A stretch of DNA of 20,039 bases from the IMG/VR virus record IMGVR_UViG_3300034375_003059, positions 1 through 20,039 of that record. One strand, 5' to 3'. The DNA comes from a virus. Positions 1,714 to 20,039 of this stretch are shown in pieces. Position 1 is the stretch's first letter; each line of letters starts with the position of its first letter. Position numbers and translations under genes: made by a program. The notes under the pieces were generated by a model. The model made no database searches, had not been told where the DNA came from, and saw only the letters and a list, made by a program, of their open reading frames with translations.

Positions 1714-1738
1714 GGAGAGGTTAACGCCTCTCTTTTTT
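1714..1738 (+). terminator. Intrinsic terminator
   Basis: GAGAGG at 1715-1720 pairs with CCTCTC at 1727-1732 around a 6-base loop and is followed directly by six T. It starts six bases after the stop of the preceding gene and marks the end of the ordinary-composition block. Confidence 0.85.
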
Positions 1739-1740
1739 AT

Positions 1741-2217
1741 TAAGTCTAACGATCTAAAAGCTAAAAACACCTCCTAAAACTATACTAACTAAACTACCGG
1801 ATTAAACTACTTAAACCTAACTAAACTCGCCTCCTCTTAAAAAGCTAACTACTTAATTATTAGACGTTTTAATCGTTCGAAAGGGTTCGAAAGGATTAAC
1901 TAAGGGTTAATAAAGGGTTAGAAACCGTTACGGAATCGTTCGAAATATAGAAGTAGAAACTTAAGTTAAAGCTTAATATAATTTAATCTATCTAGTAAGC
2001 TAACGCGTAACGTACCTACCGGACTACGTCCTTACCGACTACGATTTTTAAAAGAAGCGATTTAAAGAACTTTCTAAGACTTAGATAATAGATAATACTA
2101 TTTTATATTTAAAGTTAACGAGAGAGGCTAAAAAAGGGTTTAAATCGGATTTATTTATTTAAGGTTAAGGTTAAGATTTAACTTTTAAGTTAGAAGAGGG
2201 TTTAGTATATTTACGAT
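1741..2217 (+). promoter_or_regulatory. Repeat-rich gene-free leader, probable control region
   Basis: I see no gene in these 477 bases. The stretch has no TG and one CA (near 1769). It carries short repeats: GTTCGAAAG at 1875-1883 and 1885-1893, GTTCGAAA at 1938-1945, AAGGGTTA around 1902-1920, and GGTTAAGGTTAAG near 2163-2175. A 14-base element at 1885-1898 and a 15-base element at 1973-1987 (TTAATATAATTTAAT) recur exactly in the gap at 14359-14533. TATAAT at 1977-1982 could be a -10 box. Placed between a terminator and a long same-strand operon, it probably holds the promoter and regulator sites of that operon; an origin or packaging site is an alternative. Confidence 0.5.
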
Positions 2218-2466
2218 ATGAATATAGACGACGCTATACGAAGGACGGGTTATAAGGCTAATATAGAAGACTTTAAGACCGTAGTAGAGTGGTATATTAA
2301 GGAGAAGAAAGGAGTAGACGTTAAGATAGACTTATACTCGGAAGCTATTATGGGACGTAATAGAATTAATCCTATAGTCTTTAATCTCCACGTTAAGAGA
2401 CTACTTAGAGCCTACGTATACGCTTTAGAGTATTATAGAAACGATTATAAAAATGATATCGATTAA
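2218..2466 (+). CDS. Hypothetical protein, 82 aa
   Basis: Not recognised. It is a small, largely helical soluble protein with basic and aromatic residues (KTVVEWYIKEKKG at about 20-32, LHVKRLLRAYVYALEYYRND at about 57-76). It is the first gene after the 477-base leader. Its 3' end overlaps the next start by 14 bases, which implies translational coupling. TG and CA occur mainly where Met, Trp, His or a start codon needs them. Position before the tail genes suggests a minor morphogenesis or head-tail role, but no motif supports a specific one. Confidence 0.7.
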   Translation: MNIDDAIRRTGYKANIEDFKTVVEWYIKEKKGVDVKIDLYSEAIMGRNRINPIVFNLHVKRLLRAYVYALEYYRNDYKNDID

Positions 2467-2686
2467 AGAAAGAGGATTACCGGAGACGGATAGGACTTAC
2501 CTAATACTATCTCCTGATTACGAGTCTAAGCCTTTCGAAGCTTACTTAGACGATAACGGCGACTGGCACGATGCGAGAGTACCTAAGAGCGGATTAGCTT
2601 TTATATTTTACGAGGTAACGCATTACGAACCGGTAGACCTATTAGAGAATATAGATGATTTAGAAAATGAAGAAGACGAAAGTTAA
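2453..2686 (+). CDS. Acidic hypothetical protein, 77 aa
   Basis: Not recognised. The first 60 residues have a strand-like pattern (TYLILSPDY, SGLAFIFYEVTHYEP), and the last 15 are almost all acidic (LLENIDDLENEEDES). There is no signal peptide or membrane segment. It overlaps the genes on both sides: 14 bases with the previous gene and 20 with the next. Such dense overlap in a phage operon supports all three being translated. An acidic tail is seen in some small DNA-mimic or assembly proteins, but nothing here is diagnostic. Confidence 0.7.
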   Translation: MISIKERGLPETDRTYLILSPDYESKPFEAYLDDNGDWHDARVPKSGLAFIFYEVTHYEPVDLLENIDDLENEEDES

Positions 2687-2843
2687 ATTTAAGACCTTAG
2701 AGGGTACGATCGAACACGGGTATATCGACGGATATTTACCAGGCTCGGGTATCGATGCTTATGCTATCGTAATTTTAGGAAGTCAGATTAAGCTAATTAA
2801 TATAAAAATGTTAGAAGTAATCGGAAACGAAGTAGAGCTATGA
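2667..2843 (+). CDS. Small hypothetical protein, 58 aa
   Basis: A short frame running from ATG at 2667 to TGA at 2841-2843. The translation begins MKKTKVKFKTLEGTIEHGYI and ends MLEVIGNEVEL. It reads as a compact beta-rich protein, basic at the start, with a GSGIDAYAIVILGSQIKLI core. The stop overlaps the next start as ATGA, and the start lies within the previous gene, the usual arrangement in this operon. Without it the gap before the tail chaperone would be the only sizeable one in this tightly packed stretch. Function unknown. Confidence 0.65.
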   Translation: MKKTKVKFKTLEGTIEHGYIDGYLPGSGIDAYAIVILGSQIKLINIKMLEVIGNEVEL

Positions 2844-3526
2844 TAAAAGGACACTTAGTAAGAAACGAAGAAAGAATAGACTTTTCTATACCGAGCGGTT
2901 GGAACGAGTTAACCTTAGAAACCTTCGAAAAGGTTAAAGAGGATAGTGACGCTTTAGAAGTATTCTCCGCTTTATCCGGATTAGATATAGAGTTTATTAA
3001 GCTATGCGACGTAAAGGAGGTAGAGTTCGTAGTATCGCAGTTAGAGACGTTATTTAACGAGAAAGACTTAGAAGACTTAAAGGAGGTAGTAGATAGCTTT
3101 ACTATTAGAGGTAGGACGTTTAGACTTCCTTCCGATCTCCTTAGTATTAAAGCCGGTCAGTACTGGGATATTAAGAAAGTAGAGGAGCTTTATCGAGGTA
3201 AACCTAACGAAGCGGTAAGAGCATTAATATCTTACTTAGCTATAGAAGAGGGTAAGGAGTACGATTATAAGGACGTAGAGGAAAAGTTAGAACTATTTAA
3301 AGAGTTAGACGTAGAGAGAGCTTTTAAGATTCGCTCTTTTTTTTTAGGCAATCTAATCTTATCTACGACAGATTTAAACCTCTCTTCGATAAAGAGTATG
3401 AAGCGAAAGAACTTAAAGCGGGGTACGATACTATTAGCCGTAAGTACGGCTCTTTACTTACCGTCTATAGCTTGGCTCAAGATAAAGCGATTATTTCGGC
3501 TATTTTCGGGGAAAAAGAAAAGATAA
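2840..3526 (+). CDS. Tail assembly chaperone, short (G-like) form
   Basis: A 228-residue product resembling Bacteroidota-phage tail assembly chaperones: an N-terminal part like IPSGWNELTLETFEKV at residues 17-32, then an FSALSGLD stretch, a beta part (FTIRGRTFRLPSDLLSI), a GQYWDI motif near residues 126-131, and a helical C-terminal part ending in FF before a run of nine T. Chaperones of this kind bind the tape measure during tail-tube assembly and are not kept in the virion. The last 60 residues, after the T run, are basic and hydrophobic and unlike the rest; the main functional product may be the frameshifted form. The start overlaps the previous stop as ATGA. The role is inferred from pattern and context. 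Confidence 0.65.
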   Translation: MIKGHLVRNEERIDFSIPSGWNELTLETFEKVKEDSDALEVFSALSGLDIEFIKLCDVKEVEFVVSQLETLFNEKDLEDLKEVVDSFTIRGRTFRLPSDLLSIKAGQYWDIKKVEELYRGKPNEAVRALISYLAIEEGKEYDYKDVEEKLELFKELDVERAFKIRSFFLGNLILSTTDLNLSSIKSMKRKNLKRGTILLAVSTALYLPSIAWLKIKRLFRLFSGKKKR

Positions 3527-3612
3527 CGGACTATAGCGTAGGAGAAGTCTTTACGTATATGTTAGTTAAACAGGAAAAGAATGAATGCGATTATAAATAT
3601 CAGAGAGAATGA
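2840..3612 (+). CDS. Tail assembly chaperone, -1 frameshifted (GT-like) fusion
   Basis: The -1 frame after the T9 run is open from 3328 (TAA at 3325) to TGA at 3610-3612, with no ATG until about 3559, so it cannot be made whole without frameshifting. Slipping at T TTT TTT (3337-3343) gives 168 residues of the first frame plus 89 of the second, 257 in all. The added part reads as a good protein: RFKPLFDKEYEAKELKAGYD, then KYGSLLTVYSLAQDKA and YSVGEVFTYMLVKQEKNE. This matches the YG…L…D…V.E.L.YM pattern I associate with the T-like domain in Bacteroidota phages. Its TGA forms an ATGA overlap with the next start at 3609, which supports real use. A sequencing indel in the homopolymer is the alternative. 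Confidence 0.7.
3337..3345 (+). promoter_or_regulatory. -1 frameshift slippery site (T9 run)
   Basis: Nine T in a row, read in the zero frame as TCT TTT TTT TTA. They contain T TTT TTT, a perfect X XXY YYZ heptamer at 3337-3343. Both tRNA-Phe pairings survive a -1 slip. I did not identify a convincing stem-loop or pseudoknot downstream by eye. Confidence 0.65.
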
Positions 3613-4103
3613 ATTTAAATACAGTACAAGGAATATTTAAAGACTTAGCTACTAAGCATAAGGCTATTAAGACTTTTTATACAGGGATAGCTGGAGAGTT
3701 TAACACGGACTTCGATTTAAGTTATCCGGCGTTAATTATCGACCCGGTATCGATTACTAAGTCGGCGAGAGAAGGATTCTTCGTTAATAACTGGAATATA
3801 GTAATGGAGGTAATAGACCTTCTATCCGACGAGCGAACTATGGACGAGGTTAATACCGTCTTAGATTCTACTCAGAAGATATTAGACCAGGTTTTAACGA
3901 GGTTTATAACGGACTTTAACGATAAGTTAGTAGAGTATAATAACGAAGAGCATAGAGCGGACTTTACTATTCAAGATAACTTTACGGTCTTACCTTTAAT
4001 CGACGATACGGATAAGAGCCATACGGGGTGGCAGGTATCCTTTACTATAACCGAGCAAGTTAGATTCTCTACTTGTTGTAATTCAGATGTATTCGATGCC
4101 TAG
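3609..4103 (+). CDS. Tail terminator / tail completion-like protein
   Basis: A 164-residue soluble protein. The pattern YPALIIDPVSITKS (about 39-52), then WNIVMEVIDLLSDER and a helix DEVNTVLDSTQKILDQVLTRF, then a C-terminal strand GWQVSFTITEQVRF, resembles small tail-completion proteins (gpU-like) of Bacteroidota phages, which cap the tail tube and join it to the head. The start overlaps the stop of the frameshifted chaperone as ATGA, and the 3' end overlaps the next gene by 17 bases. Two adjacent cysteines near the end (CCNSD) are unusual for this phage, whose proteins are poor in Cys. Family assignment is by eye. Confidence 0.5.
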   Translation: MNLNTVQGIFKDLATKHKAIKTFYTGIAGEFNTDFDLSYPALIIDPVSITKSAREGFFVNNWNIVMEVIDLLSDERTMDEVNTVLDSTQKILDQVLTRFITDFNDKLVEYNNEEHRADFTIQDNFTVLPLIDDTDKSHTGWQVSFTITEQVRFSTCCNSDVFDA

Positions 4104-4557
4104 ACCTTTCTCCCAGACTAAGTTAAGAGTTAAGATAGCCTCTTTCGATATGATAGACGATATTATAGACGATCTAAATAAAGGAGATAAGAACGCCTCC
4201 GGAGATTTAGCTAAATCTTTAAAAGTCGAAGTAGCGGAGGGAGGTTCTTTAATATCGGTAAGGTTTAAAGCTAAGGAGTATTGGAAGTACGTAGACGGAG
4301 GAAGAAGACCAGGTAAACGACCTCCTATAGCTCCTTTAGAAAGGTGGATAGTAAAGAAATTAGGGTTATCCGACGAGGATAGTATTAAGTCTATAGCCTT
4401 CGCTATAGCTAATAAGATTAAGAAGAAAGGTATTAAGCCTACTTATATCTTTAGAGATAACGTAAGAAAGTTTAAAGGAAAATTACGTATATTATTAACG
4501 GACGTTAGTAAAGAGGACGTAACTAAAGAAATTAGAAAAATATTAAATAGAAAATGA
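4087..4557 (+). CDS. HK97 gp10-like neck / head-tail joining protein
   Basis: A 156-residue basic protein. The central pattern EYWKYVDGGRRPGKRPPIAP at about 63-82, followed by LERWIVKKLGL and later AFAIANKIKKKGIKP, is typical of the HK97 gp10-like family of connector/neck proteins. In that family a 'Y…G……PP…' loop precedes a helix, and a 'G..P..f' turn leads to the final helix. These proteins sit at the head-tail interface. A second in-frame ATG at 4096 (MPRPF) would shorten the overlap with the preceding gene from 17 to 8 bases and may be the true start. It overlaps the next start as ATGA. Confidence 0.65.
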   Translation: MYSMPRPFSQTKLRVKIASFDMIDDIIDDLNKGDKNASGDLAKSLKVEVAEGGSLISVRFKAKEYWKYVDGGRRPGKRPPIAPLERWIVKKLGLSDEDSIKSIAFAIANKIKKKGIKPTYIFRDNVRKFKGKLRILLTDVSKEDVTKEIRKILNRK

Positions 4558-4979
4558 GTACGATTTTAACAACGACTTACGGAGCTACCGTAACGATTAA
4601 CGGTAGTACATACGCCGTAGCTAATAACGAGAGTATAACTTTAACGGGAGAAGAAGCGGTAAAGCAGGTAGTTAGCGTACCTACTTCGGAGACTACTATA
4701 GCTAATTTAGGAGCGGTAGGACCAGCATCGTTAACAGACTTAAGCTACTTAGTAGTAATTAATAGAGACGGTACTAACTTCGTAAGGCTAAGGCTATCGG
4801 ATACGGGAGGAGCTACTATGGACGTTAAATTAGAGCCTAATAGAGCTTTTATCTTTAATAGTAGGGAGTTAAGCGTATCGGCTACAGAGGGAGCTTTCGC
4901 GTCTTTCTCTAATATCGATAATATTAAGGCTCAAGCGAATACTGCAGCTTGTGACGTAGAACTTTTATTAGCTTACTAA
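4554..4979 (+). CDS. Small beta-rich virion protein, 141 aa
   Basis: No family recognised with certainty. The product is Thr, Ala, Ser and Asn rich with alternating polarity throughout (TYGATVTINGSTYAV, LVVINRDGTNFVRLRL, GATMDVKLEPNRAFIFNS), consistent with a beta-sandwich. It has no signal peptide or transmembrane segment and few charged residues. Its size and place between a neck protein and large tail proteins suggest a minor structural or tail-associated protein. The motif 'VVINRDGTNFVRLRLSDTGG…DVKLEPNRAFIF' resembles small structural proteins that present a sample-dependent surface, but this is only a reading of the pattern. Start overlaps the previous stop as ATGA. Confidence 0.6.
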   Translation: MSTILTTTYGATVTINGSTYAVANNESITLTGEEAVKQVVSVPTSETTIANLGAVGPASLTDLSYLVVINRDGTNFVRLRLSDTGGATMDVKLEPNRAFIFNSRELSVSATEGAFASFSNIDNIKAQANTAACDVELLLAY

Positions 4980-4981
4980 TT

Positions 4982-6484
4982 ATGGCTTTAACGGTAACAC
5001 AGAGACCGGATAGCTATAGTGCCGCCTATTTACCGGTAGAGTATAAATTAACTTCGGACTTATCTCCTAATAGTATTTCCGGAGAGATCGATAGTAACGG
5101 TACTTTATTTGGTTCGGATAACTCAGGGGAGGATATTTTAGTAGGTACTCAGCCTTTACCTTTAGTAGTAGGCGATTACGTTTACTTAGAGAATGCCGGA
5201 GTCTATAACGGAGTACATAGAGTAAGCGGTATTAATAACGGAGTAGAGGGTATTAGCGTAACTGGTTTCTTTATAGATACTCCAGTAACTACTAATACTA
5301 CCTTACCTGGTATACTTAAGCAAGCGGTAGAGGTTAGTAAGTACTATAATAACTATTCGGCGGTATTAGACGTTTATATTAGCGGTTCTTTCGTAGTAAG
5401 GTTAAGAAAGAGGAGAGATTTTAATAACGAGTTCGTATTCGACTTATCTAGTATTATTCAGGAGTATTTAGGTAGCGACTTATTAGCTTTAGGAACTTCG
5501 ACTACTTTAACGGCTACGGACTTAGCTAAGAGCGTTTATATTCAGTACGCGGAGGAGTACGACGTAATAACCGACGGTATAGCGGATTTAACTTTAGGTT
5601 CTTTTACGGACGATAGCGTTAATACTTTTACGGCGGTTAATAGTACTATCCCTTACGTATTTATGAAAGACTTCTCTATATCTTCTACTAACTATAACTT
5701 ATCCGATTACTGGGAGAATAACATTACAGGTTCTAACACTTACGAGTTATTAACGGCTCAACCTAACGTAAGGATAAAAGCGGAGGATAGTTATCAGGTT
5801 AGCTTTATTAACGGAGCTACTCAATCGGGAGGTGTTCCTTGGGGTCCAGGTTCTATAGATTTAGACTTAATAGTAACGAGTTACGACTCTTCTAATAACG
5901 TTTTAGGTAGTAGTACGGTTAACGTTACGAGCGGTCAGGGAGATACGCTTATTAACGTTTATAACGTACCGGTAGGACCAAGTAACTTAGGAGCTAATAT
6001 ATCTACGGGAGCGGTTAAGTACGAAATCTATTTTAGATTAGCTGGTACTAAGATTACTAATACTAAGACTTTCTTAATCGTAGACGACTGTGAACGTATA
6101 GAGAGGCGTTTCGAGTGGGTTAATAAGTTAGGAGGCTTAGACTCTTTTACTTTTAAGGGTAAAGAGACTCGAGATATAGACGTAGAAAAAGAGACTTTTA
6201 AGAGGGTTATTAACTATCCGAGAACTTTACCGGAGAGATCGGTAACGACTTTCGGTGTAACTACTAAAGATATTTACACGGTTAATAGCGGTATCGTAGA
6301 TAAGGAGGAGAAAGAATGGCTAATCGACTTAGTAGAGTCTCCGGAGGTTTACTTAGTGGTTGACGGTTATAGATTACCGGTTCAGGTTAATACTACTTTC
6401 GGTATCGAGCAGTTAGCGGAGTATAGTTATAACGTGACTTTAGAATACGAATTAGCTTACGAAAAGATAATACAGAGAAATTAA
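4982..6484 (+). CDS. Putative distal tail / baseplate protein, 500 aa
   Basis: A long, beta-rich, Ser/Thr/Asn/Tyr-rich protein without membrane segments. Recognisable parts are a strand-rich N-terminal domain (about 1-110), a segment with SFVVRLRKRRDFNNEFVFDL at about 134-153 leading to a short helix (IIQEYLG), an Asn/Ser-rich middle domain with many loops, and a C-terminal domain starting FEWVNKLGGLDSFTFKGKE near residue 375. The 'NKLGGLDSFTF' phrase is one I associate with tail proteins of Bacteroidota phages. Its place before another large tail protein and the tape measure fits a baseplate or tail-tip role. It overlaps the next start by one base (TAATG). Confidence 0.5.
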   Translation: MALTVTQRPDSYSAAYLPVEYKLTSDLSPNSISGEIDSNGTLFGSDNSGEDILVGTQPLPLVVGDYVYLENAGVYNGVHRVSGINNGVEGISVTGFFIDTPVTTNTTLPGILKQAVEVSKYYNNYSAVLDVYISGSFVVRLRKRRDFNNEFVFDLSSIIQEYLGSDLLALGTSTTLTATDLAKSVYIQYAEEYDVITDGIADLTLGSFTDDSVNTFTAVNSTIPYVFMKDFSISSTNYNLSDYWENNITGSNTYELLTAQPNVRIKAEDSYQVSFINGATQSGGVPWGPGSIDLDLIVTSYDSSNNVLGSSTVNVTSGQGDTLINVYNVPVGPSNLGANISTGAVKYEIYFRLAGTKITNTKTFLIVDDCERIERRFEWVNKLGGLDSFTFKGKETRDIDVEKETFKRVINYPRTLPERSVTTFGVTTKDIYTVNSGIVDKEEKEWLIDLVESPEVYLVVDGYRLPVQVNTTFGIEQLAEYSYNVTLEYELAYEKIIQRN

Positions 6485-8496
6485 TGGCTACACCTTTAAA
6501 TATTTACGAATTAGATAAGTTTAATCCTTACGAGTTCTTTATTCCTTTAACGTTTAGTATTAATGACTTTAGAGATATATCGACTCGTAACGGAACTTTC
6601 TCTAAGACGGTTAAAATACCAGGAACTAAGAAGAACGATTCTTTATTAGGTCATAGCTTCGATATTACGGCAGAGGGTTTCTTCGATAGGAATAAGAGAG
6701 TACCGGCGGTAATAGAAAAGGACGGAATAACTTACTTAGACGGCTCTATGCAGTTAAAAAGCGTAGATATAAGCGACGATAAGAATTGGGTTTATAATAT
6801 TATCCTTTACTCCGACCTATCCGACTGGGGAGCTTTAATTAAGAATAAGAATATACGAGACTTAGACTATGATACTATTACCTATAATCCTACTAACGTT
6901 GAGGCTTCTTGGTCTTATAATGGCAGGGATAATGGTTATACTTTTCCTCTTATTAACTACGGTTATTTCGACGGAGATACTGAATCTACTAATCAACAGG
7001 TAGAGGAGTTCTTACCTTCGGTTTTCGTTTACGACGTATTTAGAAAGATATTTAAGGATATAGGTTATAATCTTAAACCAGGATTTTTTAACCGTCAGGA
7101 GTTTAGAGACTTAATTATGCCGGCTATTAAGACCGACTTATCTACTTCTACGGATACTTTAAACGAGAATAGGTTAGAGGTTAAGAGTTTCTACGGTTTA
7201 TACTTTCCTCAGAGGGTAGAGAGTCAGGATATATTCTTGTCTTTTAACGACGTAGATTACGACGGAGGGTCTAACTATAGCTCCGCTACTATCCCTTATA
7301 TCGCTCCTTTTTTAGGAGGTAGTTATAGTGGTACGGCTTCGGTATCTATTAAGAACGCTCAGATAATTAGTAATAATATCGATATAATTATAGAGGAATA
7401 TACTCCGGCGTTAGTATTCGTTAAGAACTTAGCTTTCGAAACTATCGACCTACCTTCTAACTCTAACTCCGCTACTATCGATTTATCTTTTACCGATATA
7501 TCTATAGACCAGGGTAATTATATTAGAGTTAAGATGCATTCCGATAATCCTAACCCTAAAATAGACGTTATAGCTAATAGCCTTAACGTTACTCCTGTAT
7601 CCGCTCCTTTATCGAACGGAGAGGAGATTAGTATTAAAGACTTCGTTTACGATATGGCTCAGAGTACTTTCGTTAAATACTTCGTACAGTTATTTAACTT
7701 AGTTCACGTTACGGACGATAAAGCTAAGACGGTAGAGTTCTTTCATAGAGACGACTTTTATAAACCTATCGAGGAAGCGGAAGACTGGACCGAAAAGAGA
7801 GACGTTTCGAGGAGGCAGACTATCGAGCAGTTAGACGATAAATTAAATAGAGAGTTAGTTTTCGAGTACGAAGAAGATGATAACGACCAACTATTAAAGA
7901 ACTTCGAAGATATATGGAATACTAACCTAACCGACGATAGTAGAGAGTTAGATAACGAATTTTTAAAAGATGAGAAAAAGGTCGCGAATATTCGTTTCTC
8001 TGGAAGTGTGGGAAGCGGTCGTATTACCCAGACAGCAGGTGGAAGTTTATATATGCCTCAATTAATAACTAACTTTAAAACTACAGGTAGCGAGGTTGAA
8101 TTAAATCCGAGACTATTAATATACGAAGGTTTAAAGAGTGGTAATTTTACTTTCGAAGGTTCTTTAAAGTCAGAGTATCCGGCGAGTTACTTCGTTAAGA
8201 AAACCTCTGGACCGTTCGACGTTTCTTTAAGCTTTAAGAACTTAAACGAGGTAGATAAGTCTATACAGATTAACGACGTAGGATTAGTCGATAGGTTTTA
8301 TAAGGAACAGATAAGACAGTTTAATAACGCTCGTTTATACACGGTTTATCTTAAATTAACTGCCGTAGATATAGTTAATTTAAACTTTAGAACTCCTAAA
8401 TTAATTAACGGAGTTTATTACTATCTTAATAAGGTAGAAGATTATAAAGCCGGAGTTAACGAACCGGTTAAATGTGAATTAATACAAATAGTATAA
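6484..8496 (+). CDS. Putative tail / baseplate protein, 670 aa
   Basis: The N-terminal 60 residues (LDKFNPYEFFIPLTFSINDF, then DISTRNGTFSKTVKIPGTKK) look like the conserved opening of a large tail protein of Bacteroidota phages that I cannot name precisely. The remainder is beta-rich with a Trp-containing region near 130-145, an acidic segment around 455-490, and a C-terminal domain ending in PKLINGVYYYLNKVEDYKAG. Size and context suggest a baseplate hub or tail-tip component. A short segment at about 7980-8060 (residues 500-525, with SGSVGSGRITQTAGG) has ordinary TG/CA density unlike the rest of the gene, suggesting a recombined patch. It overlaps the tape measure start as TAATG. Confidence 0.5.
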   Translation: MATPLNIYELDKFNPYEFFIPLTFSINDFRDISTRNGTFSKTVKIPGTKKNDSLLGHSFDITAEGFFDRNKRVPAVIEKDGITYLDGSMQLKSVDISDDKNWVYNIILYSDLSDWGALIKNKNIRDLDYDTITYNPTNVEASWSYNGRDNGYTFPLINYGYFDGDTESTNQQVEEFLPSVFVYDVFRKIFKDIGYNLKPGFFNRQEFRDLIMPAIKTDLSTSTDTLNENRLEVKSFYGLYFPQRVESQDIFLSFNDVDYDGGSNYSSATIPYIAPFLGGSYSGTASVSIKNAQIISNNIDIIIEEYTPALVFVKNLAFETIDLPSNSNSATIDLSFTDISIDQGNYIRVKMHSDNPNPKIDVIANSLNVTPVSAPLSNGEEISIKDFVYDMAQSTFVKYFVQLFNLVHVTDDKAKTVEFFHRDDFYKPIEEAEDWTEKRDVSRRQTIEQLDDKLNRELVFEYEEDDNDQLLKNFEDIWNTNLTDDSRELDNEFLKDEKKVANIRFSGSVGSGRITQTAGGSLYMPQLITNFKTTGSEVELNPRLLIYEGLKSGNFTFEGSLKSEYPASYFVKKTSGPFDVSLSFKNLNEVDKSIQINDVGLVDRFYKEQIRQFNNARLYTVYLKLTAVDIVNLNFRTPKLINGVYYYLNKVEDYKAGVNEPVKCELIQIV

Positions 8497-11390: not shown

Positions 11391-11400
11391 ACGGAAAAAG

Positions 11401-11640
11401 ATGAGCCAGAGAGAACAATTAAGCGATTTATTAAGTATAGACTTAGAGGTAATTAATAAGCTCTTTAACGAGGGTTTATTAGACCCTCGAGGTCTTAGAG
11501 TATTCTTAATAAAAGCAGAGTTTAAAGCTATGAAAGAAGCTAATCCCGACTTAACGGACTATAAGATTACTAAGGAGCTAGGTTATAAGCACGACCTTAG
11601 TAAGTCTACGGTCTATAAATGGGTTACTAATTACGGCTAG
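11401..11640 (+). CDS. Small helix-turn-helix protein, 79 aa
   Basis: The whole protein is helical. Its C-terminal third reads as a helix-turn-helix: TDYKITKELGYKHDLSKSTV as helix, turn and recognition helix, followed by YKWVTNYG. This resembles the DNA-binding part of small terminase subunits or a transcription regulator, but it is too short for a complete small terminase of usual size, and no large terminase follows. It lies 10 bases after the tape measure and is closed by a hairpin at 11640-11660, so it seems to belong to the tail transcript. It may regulate late genes or bind packaging DNA. The stop is TAG. Confidence 0.6.
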   Translation: MSQREQLSDLLSIDLEVINKLFNEGLLDPRGLRVFLIKAEFKAMKEANPDLTDYKITKELGYKHDLSKSTVYKWVTNYG

Positions 11641-11668
11641 TCTTTATTTTACGTAAAGACTTTTATTT
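11640..11668 (+). terminator. Hairpin terminator between tail and head blocks
   Basis: GTCTTTA at 11640-11646 pairs with TAAAGAC at 11654-11660 around a 7-base loop and is followed by TTTTATTT. It begins on the last base of the preceding stop codon. Seven pairs, mostly A-T, make it weaker than the others, so it may only attenuate read-through. Confidence 0.6.
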
Positions 11669-11693
11669 AAAAAAGTTAATAATATTATAGAGT

Positions 11694-12797: not shown

Positions 12798-12803
12798 TAA
12801 GAA

Positions 12804-13754: not shown

Positions 13755-13771
13755 TAAAAAGATTTATTAAC

Positions 13772-13793
13772 GGGGGTCTTCGGACTCCCTTTT
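13772..13793 (+). terminator. UUCG-loop hairpin after the capsid gene
   Basis: GGGGGTC at 13772-13778 pairs with GACTCCC at 13783-13789 with one G-T wobble. A TTCG tetraloop is closed by C-G, the classic extra-stable loop, and TTTT follows. It probably ends or attenuates transcription after the capsid gene, or protects the 3' end of its mRNA. The next start is only 14 bases further. Confidence 0.75.
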
Positions 13794-13806
13794 AAAAGAT
13801 ATTAAA

Positions 13807-14358
13807 ATGGCAGAATGTTTAATTACAGCGGGTTGGGTAGGACCATCTTGCGACGAGACTTTTAACGTACCAGGAATCGAAAAAGATAAGATTTACGTAG
13901 GTAATAAGTCAGAAATTACTGCTTTTACTTCGACTATCGACGGAGAGATCGACGGGTTAACTTTCGAAACTTATAAAGGGTTATACGCTTTAACGGTTCA
14001 TAAGGACACTGCATCTTGGACGGAGGAGTTACAAGTAGGAGCAAACTCGGGATATTATTATAACGAGTCTTTAACTTTTAGAACTATCGATTCTTCTACG
14101 GCGGTTAGAAACGCTATCGAGGATATGGTAGGTACTTCTTTAGTATTCGTAGTTAAGGATAAGAATGGAAAATGGACTGTAATCGGAGAGACTGACGGAG
14201 TAGAGCTTTCAGAGCAGACTAAAGGTTCCGGAGCGGCACCAGGAGATGATACGGGAGACGTTTTAACTTTCTCGGGAGTAAATAGAGGTAAGGCTAAAAA
14301 GTTTTTTAAGACTGACGCAACTACAACTGACTCTACGTTAGCTGGTTACTTACTTTAA
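13807..14358 (+). CDS. Probable major tail (tube) protein
   Basis: A 183-residue beta-rich protein. The segment YYYNESLTFRTIDSSTAVRN at about 79-98 leads to VFVVKDKNGKWTVIGETDGV near 116-135 and then a GDVLTFSGVNRGKAKKFF ending. This order (beta pair, short helix of 'ST..RNAI..M', 'VFVV.D..G.W.V.G...G.', 'LTF.G') is what I expect of tail tube proteins in Bacteroidota siphoviruses, though it is a judgement by eye. It is compatible with high expression: it follows the capsid gene and a stable hairpin. A head decoration or other virion protein is the main alternative. The gene ends in TAA before a repeat-rich control region. Confidence 0.5.
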   Translation: MAECLITAGWVGPSCDETFNVPGIEKDKIYVGNKSEITAFTSTIDGEIDGLTFETYKGLYALTVHKDTASWTEELQVGANSGYYYNESLTFRTIDSSTAVRNAIEDMVGTSLVFVVKDKNGKWTVIGETDGVELSEQTKGSGAAPGDDTGDVLTFSGVNRGKAKKFFKTDATTTDSTLAGYLL

Positions 14359-14533
14359 TAGTTTCTAAGCTTTATTAAAGGGTTAGTTAAGGGTTCGGAA
14401 CGGTTCGAAAGGATTACGGAACGGTTCGCAAATTTAATTTAATATAATTTAATTTAAGCTTAATAGAATATAATTTAATAGAAGAGGAGGTTTTTAAAGC
14501 CTCCTTTTTTTATCTTTAAGAAAATAATTTATT
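14359..14533 (+). promoter_or_regulatory. Second repeat-rich control region
   Basis: This gap shares short elements with 1741-2217, 12.5 kb away: GTTCGAAAGGATTA exactly at 14403-14416 and 1885-1898, TTAATATAATTTAAT exactly at 14439-14453 and 1973-1987, and TTACGGAACGGTTCG at 14414-14428, close to 1929-1942. CGGAACGGTTCG also occurs twice here (14396-14407 and 14417-14428), and TATAATTTAAT again at 14469-14479. TATAAT at 14443-14448 could be a -10 box. A terminator follows the repeats, so a promoter here would be attenuated, or the elements act on RNA or as protein sites. Confidence 0.5.
14486..14511 (+). terminator. Intrinsic terminator before the glycan cassette
   Basis: GGAGG at 14486-14490 pairs with CCTCC at 14500-14504. 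Extra A-T and G-T pairs extend the stem to about eight, leaving a 3-base loop, and seven T follow. It ends about 22 bases before the next start, so the genes after it depend on read-through or on initiation close by. Confidence 0.75.
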
Positions 14534-14773
14534 ATGGAAGAAAACTTTAAACGTAAAAAGAGGACTTATAAGAAGACTTCTAAAGAAAACGAGGTAGAAC
14601 TACCTAAAAACGAAAAAAAGGTCTTAGAACCGAAGAAATGGGTATTTAAGAACGTAAATAGAAAGATTATTTTAGGTAATTCGGTTATTAGTAACTACGA
14701 CTTAGAAAATAATCAGAGGTTAGCAGAGATTTTAATCGAGAAAGGGTTAGGAGATTTAATATGCTTCGAGTAA
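14534..14773 (+). CDS. Small basic hypothetical protein, 79 aa
   Basis: Residues 1-35 are very rich in Lys, Glu and Thr (RKKRTYKKTSKENEV) and probably disordered. Residues 36-79 form a compact part with WVFKNVNRKIILGNSVISN and a helix LENNQRLAEILIEKGLGDLI. A charged disordered tail before a small folded domain is typical of minor phage structural proteins, such as head-closure or internal proteins, but no family is certain. It overlaps the next start by 13 bases, so it is coupled to the glycan-related genes despite having no visible enzymatic motif. Confidence 0.65.
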   Translation: MEENFKRKKRTYKKTSKENEVELPKNEKKVLEPKKWVFKNVNRKIILGNSVISNYDLENNQRLAEILIEKGLGDLICFE

Positions 14774-15438
14774 GACAGATTTACTATAAGGATACTCAAA
14801 AGGTTATTAATATGGGGCGAACCTCTGACTTCGTTCCGTATTATAACCCTATATCCGATGAAAACTTAGAAAGCGGAGTTATTAGACGGTTATTCGAGTT
14901 AGAGGATTATAAGGACTCGGAATATTACGGAGTAGTTAGTCATAAGTTTTATAATAAGTTAAAAAAGGATTCTAATTATATTAAAGAAACTATCTTAAAC
15001 GACGAGGAAAAAGCCGACGTTTATAGCTTCTTCGGTAAATTAGAAAAGGTTAACTTAGTTACTCAGGGCGTTAACTGGCATCCTCTATTTTTAGATATTT
15101 ATAAGCTTATCTCCGATCGTTTAGACTGGGGTATAGACTTAGAGGATAAGTCTTTATTATTCGAGCCTATTTACTCTAACCACTGGATATCGAGTAAGGA
15201 AACTTTTAAGGAGTTCGCTTTAGACTTTCTTATACCGGTAACCGATTTAATGAACTCTTCTAAAGTACTTAGAGACCTATGTAATCAGGACGCTAACTAT
15301 ATCTCTCGAGAGAAAATATCTCCGGAGCTATGCTTAGAAGTATTCGGTAGACCTTATTATACTTACCACTGTTTTATTTTAGAAAGGTTGTTCCCGATTT
15401 TCTGCTATTTACGGGACAAAAAAGTTAAACATATATGA
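14761..15438 (+). CDS. Glycan-cluster-associated protein, 225 aa
   Basis: Not an enzyme I can name. The pattern YYGVVSHKFYNKLKK at about 55-69, then EKADVYSFFGK, then NWHPLF near 112-117, resembles a family of uncharacterised proteins often found beside glycosyltransferases in surface polysaccharide clusters ('YYG..S.KF..K…DVY…HP'); this is recollection, not a search. There is no signal peptide or membrane segment, and the last part (YYTYHCFILERLFPIFCYLR) is aromatic-rich. It is coupled to both neighbours by overlaps, the downstream one being ATGA with a glycosyltransferase. A role in glycan transfer or sugar recognition is inferred from context alone. Confidence 0.55.
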   Translation: MLRVRQIYYKDTQKVINMGRTSDFVPYYNPISDENLESGVIRRLFELEDYKDSEYYGVVSHKFYNKLKKDSNYIKETILNDEEKADVYSFFGKLEKVNLVTQGVNWHPLFLDIYKLISDRLDWGIDLEDKSLLFEPIYSNHWISSKETFKEFALDFLIPVTDLMNSSKVLRDLCNQDANYISREKISPELCLEVFGRPYYTYHCFILERLFPIFCYLRDKKVKHI

Positions 15439-16133
15439 AGTTTTTAGTATTAGTACCGATATACCGACGTCACGCTGTTTTAAGGCTATTTAACGAAGGT
15501 TTAGAGAGTTTAAAAGGTAAAGGATATAATATCGAAGTTTTAGCCGTAGGAGACGTAAACGACGAGCCTATAGCTAAAGAATTAAATTATAGATACGTTA
15601 TTCATAGGAATATCTTAGGAGAAAAGTTAAATAAAGCTCTTAAAGTAGCTAAGAATATCGATTTCGACGCTATTTTAATGCTCGGTTCTGACGATATATT
15701 AAACTCCGCTACTTTAGATTTTTATATAGATGCTTTTAATCACGATTATAAGTTTGTAGGGTTCTTAGACTGTTACTTCTACGACTTAGAGAAACGTAAT
15801 ATGATTAAATGGAACGGATATAGAGGAGAAAGAGCCGGAGAACCTATAGGAGCTTGGAGATGCTTTAAAAGAGAGCTTATAGAGGAGCTTAACTGGGAGC
15901 TTTGGGGTAATCAGCATCATTCTATCGATTATACGATGTGGGAGAAGATTAAGAAAAGGGAGGATATTTTAAAAGCTAAACTTTTCGAAGATATGTTTAT
16001 CGGAGACTTAAAAACTTCGGAAAACGTAACTAAATTTCGTAAATTCGATAACTCGGTAATAGTAAACCCTTTAGACGGGTTAAACTTATTAGAAACGGAC
16101 TTTAAAAATAAAATATTAAACTATGGAAAATAA
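15435..16133 (+). CDS. GT2-like glycosyltransferase, 232 aa
   Basis: A GT-A fold glycosyltransferase, short for the family. The N-terminal strand and loop FLVLVPIYRRH at 3-13 is followed by a helix and a VEVL-like second strand. The metal- and nucleotide-sugar-binding region is AILMLGSDDIL at 79-89, with SDD in the place of the DxD motif. The later GEPIGAWRCFKREL at about 134-150 fits the acceptor side. There is no membrane segment, so it acts in the cytoplasm on a sugar-nucleotide donor. The acceptor is unknown and could be a virion protein, lipopolysaccharide or a nucleotide. It overlaps the acyltransferase gene by 11 bases. Confidence 0.7.
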   Translation: MKFLVLVPIYRRHAVLRLFNEGLESLKGKGYNIEVLAVGDVNDEPIAKELNYRYVIHRNILGEKLNKALKVAKNIDFDAILMLGSDDILNSATLDFYIDAFNHDYKFVGFLDCYFYDLEKRNMIKWNGYRGERAGEPIGAWRCFKRELIEELNWELWGNQHHSIDYTMWEKIKKREDILKAKLFEDMFIGDLKTSENVTKFRKFDNSVIVNPLDGLNLLETDFKNKILNYGK

Positions 16134-16674
16134 TATCCACCCTACGGCGATCGTAGGAGAAAACGTTAAAATAGGTAAAGGTAATACTATCGGAGCTTAC
16201 TCGGTTATTTACGACGGAGTAGAGATAGGAGATAATAACGAAATAGGTAGTTTTGTAATTATCGGAGGTAGAGGAGAGATTAGAAAGGCTAACGAGTTTA
16301 ACGGCAAGATAGTAATAGGTAACGATAACTTAATTAATCATCACGTAACTATAGATAAGTCTATAGAGGGTTATACTTTATTAGGGTCTAATAATTTTAT
16401 AATGACTAAGGCTCATTTAGGACACGACGTAGCTATAGGTAATAACGTTACTATATCTTCCGGAGCTAATATAGGAGGACACGTAGTAATACACGACCAC
16501 GCTAACGTAGGATTAAACGCCGAAGTACATCAGAGGAAAATTATAGGTAGAGGAGCTATGGTAGGTATGGGAGCCTCTATTACTAAAGATGTTAAAGGAT
16601 TCGAAAAAGTAGTAGGAGTTAATAGAGTTATAGGAGAAAACGAGCGTAAACTAAAGGAGCTAGGGATAGAATGA
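16123..16674 (+). CDS. LpxA-like hexapeptide acyltransferase, 183 aa
   Basis: Left-handed beta-helix protein with repeated [IV]G hexads from residue 5 (IHPTAIVGENVKIGKGNTIG) to about 155. It keeps residues of the LpxA active site: AHLGHD with His98 and His101 (E. coli LpxA His122 and His125), GGHV with His120 (His144) and AEVHQ with His136 (His160). LpxA uses acyl carrier protein to acylate UDP-GlcNAc at the first step of lipid A synthesis. At 183 residues this one lacks most of the C-terminal helical domain (E. coli LpxA has 262), so its substrate may differ; sugar N- or O-acyltransferases share the fold. It is coupled to glycosyltransferase-like genes on both sides. Confidence 0.8.
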   Translation: MENNIHPTAIVGENVKIGKGNTIGAYSVIYDGVEIGDNNEIGSFVIIGGRGEIRKANEFNGKIVIGNDNLINHHVTIDKSIEGYTLLGSNNFIMTKAHLGHDVAIGNNVTISSGANIGGHVVIHDHANVGLNAEVHQRKIIGRGAMVGMGASITKDVKGFEKVVGVNRVIGENERKLKELGIE

Positions 16675-17423
16675 GATTAGCCGTATGTTATACCGTATTT
16701 AATGGAGTAGAACTATTAGAACACGCTATTAACTCGGTTAAAGACCACGTAGACGAGATTATAATAGCTTACCAGGTTACCAGTAATTACGGTAACGAGT
16801 GTAAAGACGTTTTAGAGTTTATAGAACGATTTCCGGACTATACTTACTTAAACTACGAACCTGACTTGACGGTAGACGCTAAGACTAACGAAAAGAGAAA
16901 ACATCAGAAGTTAATAGAGTTCGCTCGTATTTGTGACTGTACTCACTTCTTTCTATCGGCTACGGACCACTTTTACAAGGAGGACGAGATATTATATGCT
17001 AAGAACTTAGTAGATACTACGGGAGTAAAGACGACTTACTCTAAAATGATAACCTACTTTAAAGAGCCTACTTTAAGGTTAGAGCCTTTAGAGACTTATT
17101 ATATGCCGTTTATCTGTTCTACTTCCGTTAATATCGGTTCTTTAGCTCCGGTATTAGTAGACCCTGCTTGCGCTTTTAAACCCTTTTCTCCTTATTACGT
17201 TTTTAGAGAAGACGAGGTATTAATGCACCACTTCTCCTGGGTTAGAAAGGATATAGATAGTAAGTTAGATAACGCTGCGGCTAAGGTAAATTGGTTAGAT
17301 AAGATAGACGAATTTAAGGATAGGTATAATAACTTTAAATTAGGGGATAAATTCCCGTACTATCCTAATCACGAGATAGTAGAGACGGAGGACGTTTTTA
17401 ACTTACGTAAAATTAATTTTTAG
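16671..17423 (+). CDS. Glycosyltransferase-like protein with degenerate DxD, 250 aa
   Basis: The N-terminal part (RLAVCYTVFNGVELLEHAIN, then VDEIIIAYQ at 28-35) is a GT-A fold opening. The segment RKHQKLIEFARICDCTHFFL at 76-95 is followed by SATDHFY (96-102), where related proteins have a DADEFY-type metal site; only the second Asp (Asp99) seems kept. MHHFSWVRKDIDSKL at about 185-199 matches the family's later motif. It may be an active transferase with an altered metal site or a pseudoenzyme. Context: last of the glycan genes, coupled by ATGA to the acyltransferase and followed 24 bases later by the portal gene. Confidence 0.6.
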   Translation: MRLAVCYTVFNGVELLEHAINSVKDHVDEIIIAYQVTSNYGNECKDVLEFIERFPDYTYLNYEPDLTVDAKTNEKRKHQKLIEFARICDCTHFFLSATDHFYKEDEILYAKNLVDTTGVKTTYSKMITYFKEPTLRLEPLETYYMPFICSTSVNIGSLAPVLVDPACAFKPFSPYYVFREDEVLMHHFSWVRKDIDSKLDNAAAKVNWLDKIDEFKDRYNNFKLGDKFPYYPNHEIVETEDVFNLRKINF

Positions 17424-17447
17424 ATAAAAAACTTATTTTAAATAGAT

Positions 17448-18719
17448 ATGGAAGAAAACTTAGAAAAAAGTAACGTTTTTTTTGTTAATCTAACGACTAA
17501 ATCTGTTACTCCGGACGTAGACGTAAGGAGGAATAGAAAGAAAGATTATATTTACTTCGGTAAGGATAATTTATTCCCTAACTATCTAATAGATTTAGCG
17601 GATAATTGCTCTATTCATAGAGCGTTATTAGAGACTAAGTCTAAATTTATCGCCGGAGAGGGGTTCTCTTTCGAAGGAGAGGATAGTCAGGTAGCTTTAG
17701 CGGAAAGATTCTTAGAAGGGTTAGATAAAGACTTTTTAAGAAAGACTTCCGTAGATATGGCTTACTTTAACGGTTTTTACTGGCAGTCTAAGTTCGAAAG
17801 ATCGGGTAACGTAGCTTATTTACGTAACGTAGACTTCTCTTATATCCGTTCGGGTAAAATGAACGAAAATGGAGAAGTAGAAAAATACTACTATACACCA
17901 GATTGGAAGTTTGCTACTAAGCGTAACTCTTTTAAACCTGAGGACGCTATTTACGAACCTAAGCCTATCGCTTCTTGGTATTCTTCCGATAGAGCTTTAG
18001 TAAGAGAGAGAGGAGAACTTATTAACGGTATGAGTTACTCTCCAGGAAAGTTATTTTACGCGGAGCCTAATTACTTAGGAGCGTTAAACTATATCGAGAT
18101 TAGTAATCAGATAGCAGAGTTTCATAAGAATAACTTAGATAACGGTATGGTAGGGTCTATGCATATTCATTTATTCGAAGACCTTAGCGACGGAGAAAAG
18201 CGTAGAAAAGTAGAGAAGTCTATTAATAATAAGTTTAGCGGTTCGGAGAACGCCGGTAAGGTAGTAGTAACTTGGTCTACTAATCCGGATATGAAGACCT
18301 TAGTAGAATCTATACCGGTTAACGATTCTCACGAAATGTTTACCCTACTTAACGGTAAAGTATCGGAGGAGATCGTAATGGCTCATAGAACGCCTATGGC
18401 TTTAGCCGGAATTAAGGTAGCTACCGGACTACAGTCGGAGGATAGTTTAACGCGTTCTAATATGGAGTATTATCAGAATACGGTAATTAGACCTCAGCAG
18501 ACGGTTATAGAGGACTCTTTAGATAAAGTCTTAGAGCGTAACGGTATTAACGTTAAAACTAAAATTAAGCCTCTTAAACCTATCGATATATTAGCTTCGG
18601 AGGAGCTTATGTTACGTACTATGTCCTTAGAAGAGATTAGAAGAGACGTATTAGGTAAAGACGAATTAGAGGGTACTCCGGTATTAAGCGAGAGTAATAA
18701 CGATAATATAGTAGACTAA
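17448..18719 (+). CDS. Portal protein
   Basis: A 423-residue protein matching Bacteroidota-phage portals. The N-terminal part DYIYFGKDNLFPNYLIDLAD at about 33-52 is followed by a helix with HRALLETKSKFIAGEGFSFE. The wing and stem have WQSKFERSGNVAYLRNVDF and EFHKNNLDNGMVG. The C-terminal part has HRTPMALAGIKVATGLQSED and then a long helix MEYYQNTVIRPQQTVIEDSL. Portals form the dodecameric DNA gate at one capsid vertex and dock the terminase and neck. Here the gene lies after the glycan cassette and before the tail fibre, not next to a terminase, which is unusual. A short segment near 17860-17925 contains several avoidable TG/CA. Confidence 0.7.
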   Translation: MEENLEKSNVFFVNLTTKSVTPDVDVRRNRKKDYIYFGKDNLFPNYLIDLADNCSIHRALLETKSKFIAGEGFSFEGEDSQVALAERFLEGLDKDFLRKTSVDMAYFNGFYWQSKFERSGNVAYLRNVDFSYIRSGKMNENGEVEKYYYTPDWKFATKRNSFKPEDAIYEPKPIASWYSSDRALVRERGELINGMSYSPGKLFYAEPNYLGALNYIEISNQIAEFHKNNLDNGMVGSMHIHLFEDLSDGEKRRKVEKSINNKFSGSENAGKVVVTWSTNPDMKTLVESIPVNDSHEMFTLLNGKVSEEIVMAHRTPMALAGIKVATGLQSEDSLTRSNMEYYQNTVIRPQQTVIEDSLDKVLERNGINVKTKIKPLKPIDILASEELMLRTMSLEEIRRDVLGKDELEGTPVLSESNNDNIVD

Positions 18720-20039
18720 TGGCTTTAGATTTAGGAATATTTTTAGAAGGAGCGCAGAGTACTTTTAAGGTAAAAGTTTCTGATAACGACGCTCAAGCTC
18801 AGTACTTAATAGATAAGCTTATTAGCTCTGACGGTTCGGTAACTATTACCGAGACTAACGACGGAGGGATAGAGACTATAGACTTAACTACTTCGGGAGG
18901 TGGGGGTAGTGATACCAATATAGCTAATACAGACTTAACTAATGACGCTAATCATTCAGTTAACTTAAACACGTTCAAACAAGGTTTTACTAACGGAGAG
19001 CTCGGTATTGGTACTGCAACGCCCGATAATTCATCACAACTTGAAGTTTCTGCAACAGATAAAGGCTTATTAATTCCAAGAGTTACTACGGCTCAAATGA
19101 ATGCGATTAGTACGCCAGCTACTAATTTACTTGTGTTTAATACCGATTTAGAAGCTTTATACAGATACGATGGTGCGAATTGGGTTGCTTTATCTGCTGG
19201 TTATGGTGTTATTGAGGTTATTACTGACGCTGATTCGGGTATACCTACCTATTTTACTGATTTACAAAGTGCCTTAGAAACGTGTAAGACAAGTGGAAGT
19301 AATAACGTAGTTAGGTTATGTTCTGACATCACTATTACAAGTGCTATTTCAATTAAAAGTACTGGTTCAGGTACTGGGTTAGGCTATGATTTTGAAAGTT
19401 TAACTATTGACTTCAACGGTTTTAGAGTGGTTAATAATGAAGCTGACGGAAGTTACTGTTTTGATGTTTTTATAGATGGCTCAACAGCTTCAAATCGCCA
19501 ATTATCATTTGTTAATGGTCAAGTAATAAGAACGAGCGGAACTACTGCTAGTAGGTCTATATTGTGCGATTCTGCTGGTCATTACGGTGGTGTATCAATG
19601 AACAAAATGATATGGTACAATGACGGAGGTGTTTGTGCTGATTTCAGAATGGGTAGTGTTGCTAATTATATGACAAGCATTAATGATTGGGGAGGTAGTG
19701 TTTTTCAATCTGACACTAGCTTCGCTATTGATATTCTAGGGATTAATAGTACTTATCCATTCAAAGTTAGGAACTTTACAGCGATAGGTAATAGTGCAAA
19801 TATAGCATTGTATTCTAGGGGTAACGTTGAAGCTAGTCATTTTACCGCTTACAATTTATCAACTGGTGATTCTATTTATGTAAAAAGCACCTCAAATTTA
19901 AGTCATTTTTCAGCTTATTCAACATCGGGTAATGCTATTGAGTTTGCTGATGATTTTGATGGTGTGTTATCTAATTTTTACGCACAATCAACAACTGGAG
20001 ATTGTATATATATGGTTAACAGCTCTAATACATCGTACA
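18719..20039 (+). CDS. Tail fibre / receptor-binding protein, 5' part
   Basis: The frame is open from ATG at 18719 (TAATG overlap with the portal stop) to the window edge. Residues 1-60 are an N-terminal domain, probably the virion anchor. A glycine-rich linker (SGGGGSD, about 59-65) follows, then NTDLTNDANHSVNLN and a fibre module with LGIGTATPD…KGLLIPRVTTAQ…YDGANWVAL, common in Bacteroidota fibres. After about residue 165 the protein has repeated short strands (LTIDFNGFRVV, MSKN-free; many Asn, Ser, Thr, Gly) that fit a right-handed beta-helix, the usual receptor-binding or polysaccharide-depolymerase fold. The TG/CA depletion ends near the linker, so the C-terminal part appears to have been gained from a source of ordinary composition. 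Confidence 0.75.
   Translation, partial: MALDLGIFLEGAQSTFKVKVSDNDAQAQYLIDKLISSDGSVTITETNDGGIETIDLTTSGGGGSDTNIANTDLTNDANHSVNLNTFKQGFTNGELGIGTATPDNSSQLEVSATDKGLLIPRVTTAQMNAISTPATNLLVFNTDLEALYRYDGANWVALSAGYGVIEVITDADSGIPTYFTDLQSALETCKTSGSNNVVRLCSDITITSAISIKSTGSGTGLGYDFESLTIDFNGFRVVNNEADGSYCFDVFIDGSTASNRQLSFVNGQVIRTSGTTASRSILCDSAGHYGGVSMNKMIWYNDGGVCADFRMGSVANYMTSINDWGGSVFQSDTSFAIDILGINSTYPFKVRNFTAIGNSANIALYSRGNVEASHFTAYNLSTGDSIYVKSTSNLSHFSAYSTSGNAIEFADDFDGVLSNFYAQSTTGDCIYMVNSSNTSY

Follow-up and report, generated by a model that had tools for sequence, protein, structure and literature searches.

Gene content and edges of the tract

The window, by which we mean the whole stretch of DNA analyzed here (20,039 nt; positions 1 to 20,039 of IMG/VR record IMGVR_UViG_3300034375_003059), covers part of a tailed phage genome. 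Essentially all of the phage genes lie on one strand, and the features of the window, which include a long tract depleted of the dinucleotides TG and CA, are as follows.

1..1380, + strand: cassette with normal TG/CA, recently acquired at least in 1-875 (identity to phage L312)
103-465, + strand: pyrimidine-dimer DNA glycosylase within this cassette (PF03013 and phrog_1183 matches)
1382..1708, + strand: 108-aa protein without an assigned role, whose gene crosses the left boundary of the tract; TG/CA intermediate (0.53)
1473..18901, no strand: tract poor in TG/CA, with both complementary steps affected in coding and non-coding DNA alike (change points, codon shuffle, observed/expected table)
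1741..2217, no strand: non-coding stretch with no TG and one CA (counts against about 50 expected)
2218..3526 (2218-2466, 2453-2686, 2840-3526), + strand: small phage proteins without an assigned role, depleted
3609..8496, + strand: tail-region proteins without an assigned role, depleted
8496..11390, + strand: tail tape measure protein, depleted (PHROGs matches up to 9e-62)
11694..12797, + strand: head maturation (ClpP-type) protease, depleted (phrog_94, 4e-73)
12804..13754, + strand: probable major capsid protein (gene order; phrog_11320, no function assigned, 6e-12)
14761..17423, + strand: sugar-type genes between capsid and portal (a weak glycosyltransferase match, a hexapeptide transferase and two without assignment)
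17448..18719, + strand: portal protein, depleted (phrog_11226, 9e-45)
18719..20038, + strand: tail-fiber-like gene, N-terminal part conserved and depleted, TG/CA-normal from about 18901 on

The edges of the tract were placed by likelihood change points at about 1473 (support, 1356-1553) and 18901 (18881-18953); the original prediction, which ran from 1741 to 18900, was right about the end of the tract and set its beginning slightly too late. The remaining products of the cassette are small proteins without an assigned role, and a terminator-like inverted repeat with a T run was seen by eye at about 1709-1740, 3' of the gene for the 108-aa protein. The probable capsid protein had no match among isolate phages, and its gene is the least depleted long gene in the tract (CA, 0.57). 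Most relatives align with the tail-fiber-like gene over its first 170-490 bp only.

Size and scope of the deficit

Over positions 1741-18900, the observed/expected ratios were 0.26 for TG and 0.33 for CA, both far below 1 and below the values of approximately 1.0-1.2 found outside, and TA (1.35), CG (1.54), CT (1.45) and AG (1.32) were commoner than expected. The near-total avoidance of TG/CA with plentiful TA and CG, which had been claimed from hand counts, is borne out by these figures, and recounting reproduced the samples themselves: 13 TG plus 13 CA at 181-360 (25 by hand), one of each at 16141-16320 (2 by hand) and 12 plus 9 at 19021-19200 (21 by hand). The non-coding stretch at 1741-2217 contains, as originally stated, no TG and one CA, against expectations of 23 and 27 (Poisson p of about 8e-21). 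When codons in the window were shuffled with proteins and codon usage held fixed, TG across codon junctions (T|G) was observed 117 times against 606±14 expected (z = -34), and the corresponding C|A junction was observed 18 times against 291±12 (z = -23). Inside genes, 315 of the 560 TG/CA occurrences are attributable to Met, Trp, Cys, His and Gln codons and are unavoidable, and the term "near-total" holds for avoidable sites. Depletion is uniform across early and late genes.

The deficit is real and is not an assembly artifact, an explanation that the original prediction had left to be checked. A separate contig of 36,120 bp is 100% identical to the window over 18,913 bp, a third contig is 99.99% identical to the 36,120-bp contig over 11.5 kb, the open reading frames of the window are intact, and related contigs carry the same bias in graded form. 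The 36-kb contig is depleted almost throughout, with codon-aware junction ratios of 0.18 for T|G and 0.08 for C|A (0.75 and 0.72 in sister phages), and in both this contig and the window TG/CA is rarer than codon- and composition-matched expectation, as in depletion of CRISPR protospacer-adjacent motifs (PAMs). Raw tri- and tetranucleotide ratios hinted at a longer motif, TTGW, which was discarded under codon-aware controls: in the 36-kb contig, junction counts were low in each of the 32 tetranucleotide contexts (16 NTGN and 16 NCAN). Flanking bases hardly matter, and the signal is therefore the bare dinucleotide TG/CA.

Relatives, exchanged DNA and substitution patterns

Among IMG/VR relatives, the search originally proposed for phages of the same profile recovered one monophyletic depleted clade, adjoined by near-normal sister phages; the deficit thus marks a single phage lineage. 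Clades C and D are near normal, as are those early genes of clade A that have been replaced by import. The only gene common to all depleted genomes yet absent from genomes G004 and G005 encodes a 77-aa protein with no family match. In relatives and in other phages with this terminase, different dinucleotides are avoided, namely, CpG and GA/TC. Among isolates, the closest are Flavobacterium phage 11b and Cellulophaga phage phi10:1, with 52-53% terminase identity; neither is depleted, and a host search of genome contigs returned two remote terminase matches and nothing else. The depleted group is aquatic and probably infects Bacteroidota. Five of these phages carry no tRNA genes, and tRNA supply was accordingly rejected as a cause.

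These phages often exchange modules, and the depletion ends where DNA was recently exchanged. Positions 1-507 and 754-875 of the window match L312 at 99.2-100% identity; this phage has different structural genes and a TG/CA ratio of 1.21. The imported glycosylase gene has 48 TG/CA sites compared with 21 in the resident, depleted copy, and the differences between the two are most often transitions. Recently imported DNA thus retains normal TG/CA. L312, the donor of the TG-rich cassette, may share hosts with the depleted phages.

In a gain/loss contrast within clades A and B, which compares existing sequences without direction of change and over non-independent sequence pairs, CA was gained at 0.37x (0.27-0.49) and lost at 1.93x the neutral expectation, and TG was gained at 0.55x (0.44-0.68) and lost at 2.33x, as predicted by a scaled selection coefficient near 1.5. 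Total CA differences in the same clades amount to 0.73x of the gains alone that unbiased mutation would be expected to yield. Gain/loss ratios of depleted versus control clades differed in the expected direction, with wide intervals, and the conclusions are drawn from the contrast within clades. Transversions were used freely alongside transitions at lost sites, and at fourfold T|G sites the T is mostly replaced by A or G, which are transversions; relative to other purine exchanges, CA was lost at NCA codons no more than in controls. Avoidance at the amino acid level was not seen, since His, Gln, Cys, Trp and Met residues are kept as in a control phage and only silent sites have changed. The deficit is maintained by selection-like fixation, in which new sites seldom spread and lost ones give way to any silent alternative. 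Suppressed gains, raised losses, free use of transversions and unaffected amino acids therefore indicate selection, or selection-like biased repair, rather than a deaminase or mutator; on the first three, the deficit resembles PAM depletion in being attributed to selection and not to mutation bias, and biased repair gives the same signature.

Candidate causes of the deficit

A literature search of open-license full text found no paper on TpG/CpA avoidance in a phage. Loss of CpG through 5-methylcytosine deamination resembles the present case in that one dinucleotide is strongly lost genome-wide, but it proceeds by one transition, leaves gains unaffected and raises TG/CA while depleting CG, whereas here TG/CA is lost, transversions are common, gains are suppressed and CT and AG are enriched as well; the original view that this is not CpG-type deamination stands. 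Like the hypermodified TAGT phages, the 36-kb contig encodes a TAGT-family glycosyltransferase, its one modification-type gene; unlike them, it had no methyltransferase or TET-type match among the scanned proteins of this near-complete contig, so that of the C5-methyltransferase, TET/JBP and glycosyltransferase that make up the pathway, the last alone is present. Approximately 70 other phages with homologues of this glycosyltransferase have TG/CA near 1 (one exception, 0.67), and it was rejected as the cause; the sugar/glycosyltransferase module at 14761-17423 was set aside likewise, being carried also by the non-depleted clade D. The DNA modification suggested originally thus found no support. 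A PADLOC defense scan gave no match in the ten proteins scanned.

A context-dependent mutator or editing activity, by which a deaminase, a modified base or a polymerase error would turn TG/CA into TA or CG, was also among the causes first proposed, and the enrichment of both TA and CG and the prevalence of transitions between the two glycosylase genes accord with it. We consider it very unlikely, however, because a loss-only mutator would not suppress gains, the alternatives at fourfold T|G sites are mostly transversions, loss of CA at NCA codons lies within controls, only silent sites have moved and ACA cannot become ACG by C-to-T deamination. Selection at the mRNA or codon level, with host translation or RNA stability disfavoring UG and CA, is most improbable: the one-stranded arrangement of the genes means that mRNA and DNA are not fully separable, and the probable capsid gene, in which codon selection ought to be at its most intense, shows the least depletion, but non-coding DNA has also been emptied, codon junctions are depleted with codon usage fixed, and TG and CA are mutual reverse complements, as duplex DNA predicts. 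A phage-intrinsic cause, in which TG/CA would be disfavored by a DNA transaction that the phage encodes or by mismatch repair as the phages frequently recombine, and alleles lacking the dinucleotide would spread as if selected, accommodates the gain/loss data equally, as biased conversion yields the same signature. The phages have recombination genes of their own (ERF annealing protein, exonuclease and RusA-like resolvase) and exchange modules frequently, and the avoidance of other dinucleotides by phages with this terminase, together with the possible sharing of hosts by TG-rich L312, favors such a cause. We nonetheless judge it quite unlikely, since a single enzyme would need to settle mismatches of several kinds, including transversions, always against TG/CA; the sole gene distinguishing the depleted genomes from G004 and G005 is that of the 77-aa protein; and the imported early genes of clade A are near normal.

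Direct reading of TG/CA by a non-CRISPR activity, be it a nuclease or restriction-type enzyme whose site is 2 bp or very degenerate, or a motif-reading, DarT-like DNA-modifying toxin acting on exposed phage strands, would impose a per-site hazard that the phage lessens by cutting the number of sites, and it seems rather unlikely to us. It would leave the same selection signature within clades A and B, agrees with the uniform depletion of early and late genes, and finds some support in the distribution of methyltransferases: clades C and D, with C5 and/or N6/N4 enzymes, are near normal, and the most depleted phage yielded none. Against this, clade B is depleted despite an N6/N4 methyltransferase, and a 2-bp cutter would require complete self-protection by the host. 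Restriction-site avoidance similarly lowers a per-site hazard, but its known sites span at least 4 bp and are as a rule palindromes, and the word avoided here is 2 bp, non-palindromic and independent of its flanks, with all NTGN and NCAN contexts low. DarT-type toxins, which recognize short single-stranded DNA motifs, offer a precedent for short-motif reading, although DarT1 has no reported consensus motif and DarT2 reads four bases (PMC11543638).

We tentatively favor, as a leading possibility that falls somewhat short of probable, selection by a host activity that reads TG/CA. The lineage would have been long exposed to an antiphage activity, most likely host encoded, whose sole fixed sequence requirement in phage DNA is this dinucleotide, such that every site would carry a small cost and silent changes removing sites would win. 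The original suggestion of a defense or nuclease with a very short site survives to the extent that selection against TG/CA is the best reading of the gain/loss data; no such system was identified, and neither a CRISPR locus nor a nuclease was seen. Of known classes, a CRISPR effector whose PAM is the 2-nt word TG (or CA) would fit best, because a PAM can be 2 nt long, blind to its flanks and counted on both strands, and such a reader would spare its host because the spacer supplies specificity. The type V-C effectors Cas12c1 and OspCas12c, with a TG PAM (PMC9522604), recognize precisely TG in duplex DNA next to a target set by the spacer and provide a literature lead. PAM depletion through selection has been described in phages for types I-C, I-E and II-A (PMC4246573) and, like the present deficit, lowers a 2- to 3-nt word on both strands, genome-wide and mainly at silent sites (PMC4246573, PMC12174588). 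Published PAM depletion is, however, far weaker, that for type I-F being slight (CC, 8.27 versus 8.74%; PMC12174588), whereas here avoidable sites are nearly purged. Also at odds with the favored selection by a host activity are the lack of depletion in the cassette donor, which possibly shares hosts, and the avoidance of CpG and GA/TC by relatives, which could instead reflect something intrinsic to the phages. Protospacer mutations offer another way out of CRISPR attack, and a purge of the whole dinucleotide would therefore need very long or intense pressure.

It is a broader and unlikely conjecture that an undescribed antiphage activity of aquatic Bacteroidota reads bare TG/CA in duplex DNA, that related activities read CpG or GA/TC and that phage genomes would form a readable dinucleotide record of the activity faced. 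If a defense is responsible, either the motif that it reads is unusually short or its pressure lies far above any measured for PAMs; in both cases the host system could be sought directly, and the past course of the pressure would be legible in the graded relatives. If biased repair is responsible instead, this would be a strong example of a phage genome shaped by conversion. Motif avoidance in phages is known as a slight statistical shift; in the present case, silent positions across most of a genome have lost a two-letter word almost completely with protein sequence untouched, and the graded relatives and freshly imported TG-rich patches serve as natural controls.

Extent and unit of the deficit

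Avoidance of TpG and CpA (TG/CA) over 1741-18900, which the original prediction drew from hand counts that our recount reproduced, was confirmed and proved stronger than could then be shown, with TG at 0.26 and CA at 0.33 of expectation (dinucleotide observed/expected). TA and CG were indeed plentiful there (1.35 and 1.54), CT and AG stood at 1.45 and 1.32, and TG/CA was about 1.0-1.2 in the flanks of this region; likelihood change points put the boundaries of the depleted tract at ~1473 and ~18901. The non-coding stretch 1741-2217, described as almost devoid of these steps, held 1 against about 50 expected. When synonymous codons of the window genes were shuffled, with proteins and codon usage held constant, T|G spanning adjacent codons occurred 117 times against 606 expected (z -34) and C|A 18 times against 291 (z -23). 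Codons for Met, Trp, Cys, His and Gln, in which TG/CA is unavoidable, can account for 315 of the 560 sites remaining in genes.

In G001, an IMG/VR contig of 36,120 bp with 100% identity to the window across 18,913 bp, codon-aware junction values were 0.18 for T|G and 0.08 for C|A, against 0.75 and 0.72 overall in sister phages, and all 16 NTGN contexts (0.07-0.39) and all 16 NCAN contexts (0-0.35) were low. A preference for TTGW in raw counts was explained largely by codon and amino-acid composition. The avoided unit is the bare dinucleotide TG/CA, and the loss of both complementary steps, from coding and non-coding DNA alike, is most simply explained if duplex DNA is the target.

Depleted lineages and imported DNA

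The 20,039-bp window comes from a tailed phage and encodes head and tail proteins: tape measure, a protease for head maturation, portal and a probable capsid protein. To these G001, itself 99.99% identical to a further contig across 11.5 kb, adds replication, recombination and terminase genes; G001 is depleted along almost its whole length, the exception being tail-fibre/appendage genes at about 17.6-22.6 kb. By terminase identity, Flavobacterium phage 11b and Cellulophaga phage phi10:1 are the closest isolates (52-53%), and the hosts are therefore probably Bacteroidota. In a structural-gene tree, G001, clade A (contigs G006 and G002), clade B (G003) and fragments grouped together, their junction TG/CA ranging from 0.21 to 0.57; values were 0.76-0.78 in sister clade C, 0.63-0.70 in clade D and 0.79 and 0.97 in the outermost sequences. 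Among 386 fetched loci, each of at least 4 kb, all those with TG/CA <0.6 belonged to this group. A 77-aa protein (window 2453-2686) with no Pfam match was present in the depleted G001, G002, G003 and G006 and was not found in contigs G004 and G005. G002 (about 19-34 kb; L112, L113) combines depleted structural genes with near-normal early genes, and so seems to be a mosaic of lineages with and without depletion. G009 (64 kb, GC 49%; L122-L125), unrelated by portal gene, had TG/CA of 0.64 with low AC and AG and high AA, which looks like a broader composition signature and not the same effect.

Contig L312, from a phage with other structural genes and TG/CA of 1.21 along its whole length, matches window positions 1-507 and 754-875 at 99.2-100% identity, whereas a contig matching G001 at 100% over 6.8 kb runs on into its own, depleted pyrimidine-dimer glycosylase gene. 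Near-identical phages thus carry two T4 endonuclease V-type glycosylase genes, a natural recoding pair:

Window 103-465: imported copy, TG-rich
L313:5998-6357: resident copy, TG-poor

The two share 81% DNA identity and, over 119 aligned codons, contain 48 (imported) and 21 (resident) TG/CA sites, 18 of them common to both. The tail region of G001 is 94% identical to that of G006 over 1.57 kb, against about 80% elsewhere, and the boundaries of the depleted tract look like those of recent exchange. The TG-rich L312-like cassette, the depleted resident glycosylase and the G001/G006 exchange thus indicate that incoming TG/CA is tolerated and that its removal needs evolutionary time. Because window 1-1126 is absent from G001, the left-end cassette join may be chimeric; the depletion is independent of that join.

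Selection, mutation and modification

Within depleted clades A and B, pairs of close relatives were scored for changes at third-position pyrimidines, with pyrimidines preceding C or T serving as the neutral reference; these are pairs of existing sequences, not independent and with no direction of change assigned. Before A, CA-creating changes ran at 0.37x neutral (95% block-bootstrap interval, 0.27-0.49) and CA-destroying changes at 1.93x (1.60-2.39); before G, the corresponding TG values were 0.55x (0.44-0.68) and 2.33x (1.82-3.02). Gains at about 0.4x and losses at about 2x are what a scaled selection coefficient near 1.5 would give, whereas a loss-only mutator would leave the gain rate unaltered. 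Without the equal-flux assumption, all CA differences summed came to 0.73 (0.54-0.97) of the gains alone under unbiased mutation. The contrast with clades C and D alone gave wide intervals. Where clade D has T|G at fourfold sites, G001 has A at 0.55, G at 0.23, C at 0.05 and T at 0.18 (22 sites), and clade D NCA codons correspond to NCT at 0.37, NCG at 0.27, NCA at 0.31 and NCC at 0.04 (51 sites); transversions are therefore freely used. His, Gln, Cys, Trp and Met were retained in G001 about as often as in a control phage. These results rule out a C-to-T deaminase and make any single mutator unlikely, a context-dependent one having been among the causes originally suggested. Biased repair during recombination may be responsible instead, as its outcome could not be told apart from that of selection. 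The most likely cause is selection against the TG/CA dinucleotide itself in duplex DNA.

No DNA methyltransferase was found among the G001 proteins scanned, and the sole modification-type gene adjoins one for a weakly ParB-like protein:

L111:11980-13195 (G001 31980-33195): small ParB-like protein, then TAGT-family glycosyltransferase (PF20691, phrog_842)

The glycosyltransferase was rejected as the cause, homologues occurring in about 70 other phages in which TG/CA is essentially normal. C5 and/or N6/N4 methyltransferases lie in the early regions of clades C and D (clade D genes named by eye), but clade B also has a methyltransferase and is depleted, so methylation and normal TG/CA do not consistently go together.

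A possible short recognition site and other avoided dinucleotides

For a restriction-type enzyme, a 2-bp site would put the host itself at risk unless protection were complete. A CRISPR effector whose PAM is 2 nt long would spare its host because specificity comes from the spacer; such an effector appears to be the best-fitting known class of candidate. TG PAMs are known for Cas12c1 and OspCas12c (PMC9522604), and selection-driven PAM depletion in phages is documented (PMC4246573; PMC12174588), although far weaker than that seen here (CC, 8.27 versus 8.74%; PMC12174588).

Avoidance of TG/CA may be one of several such cases, since other lineages with related terminases avoid CpG (0.07 in L211 and 0.12 in L178; also L163, L189 and L197; terminase identity 50-55%) or GA/TC (0.53-0.61 in L152, L153 and L192, with junction TC of 0.28 in L152). 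Unlike methyl-CpG deamination, the CpG poverty of L211 and L178 comes with no rise in junction TG. Among phages carrying the TAGT gene, L256-L260 and L263-L265 (45-47% GC) had CpG of 0.17-0.41 with TG/CA up at 1.2-1.4, the pattern expected for CpG methylation and deamination.
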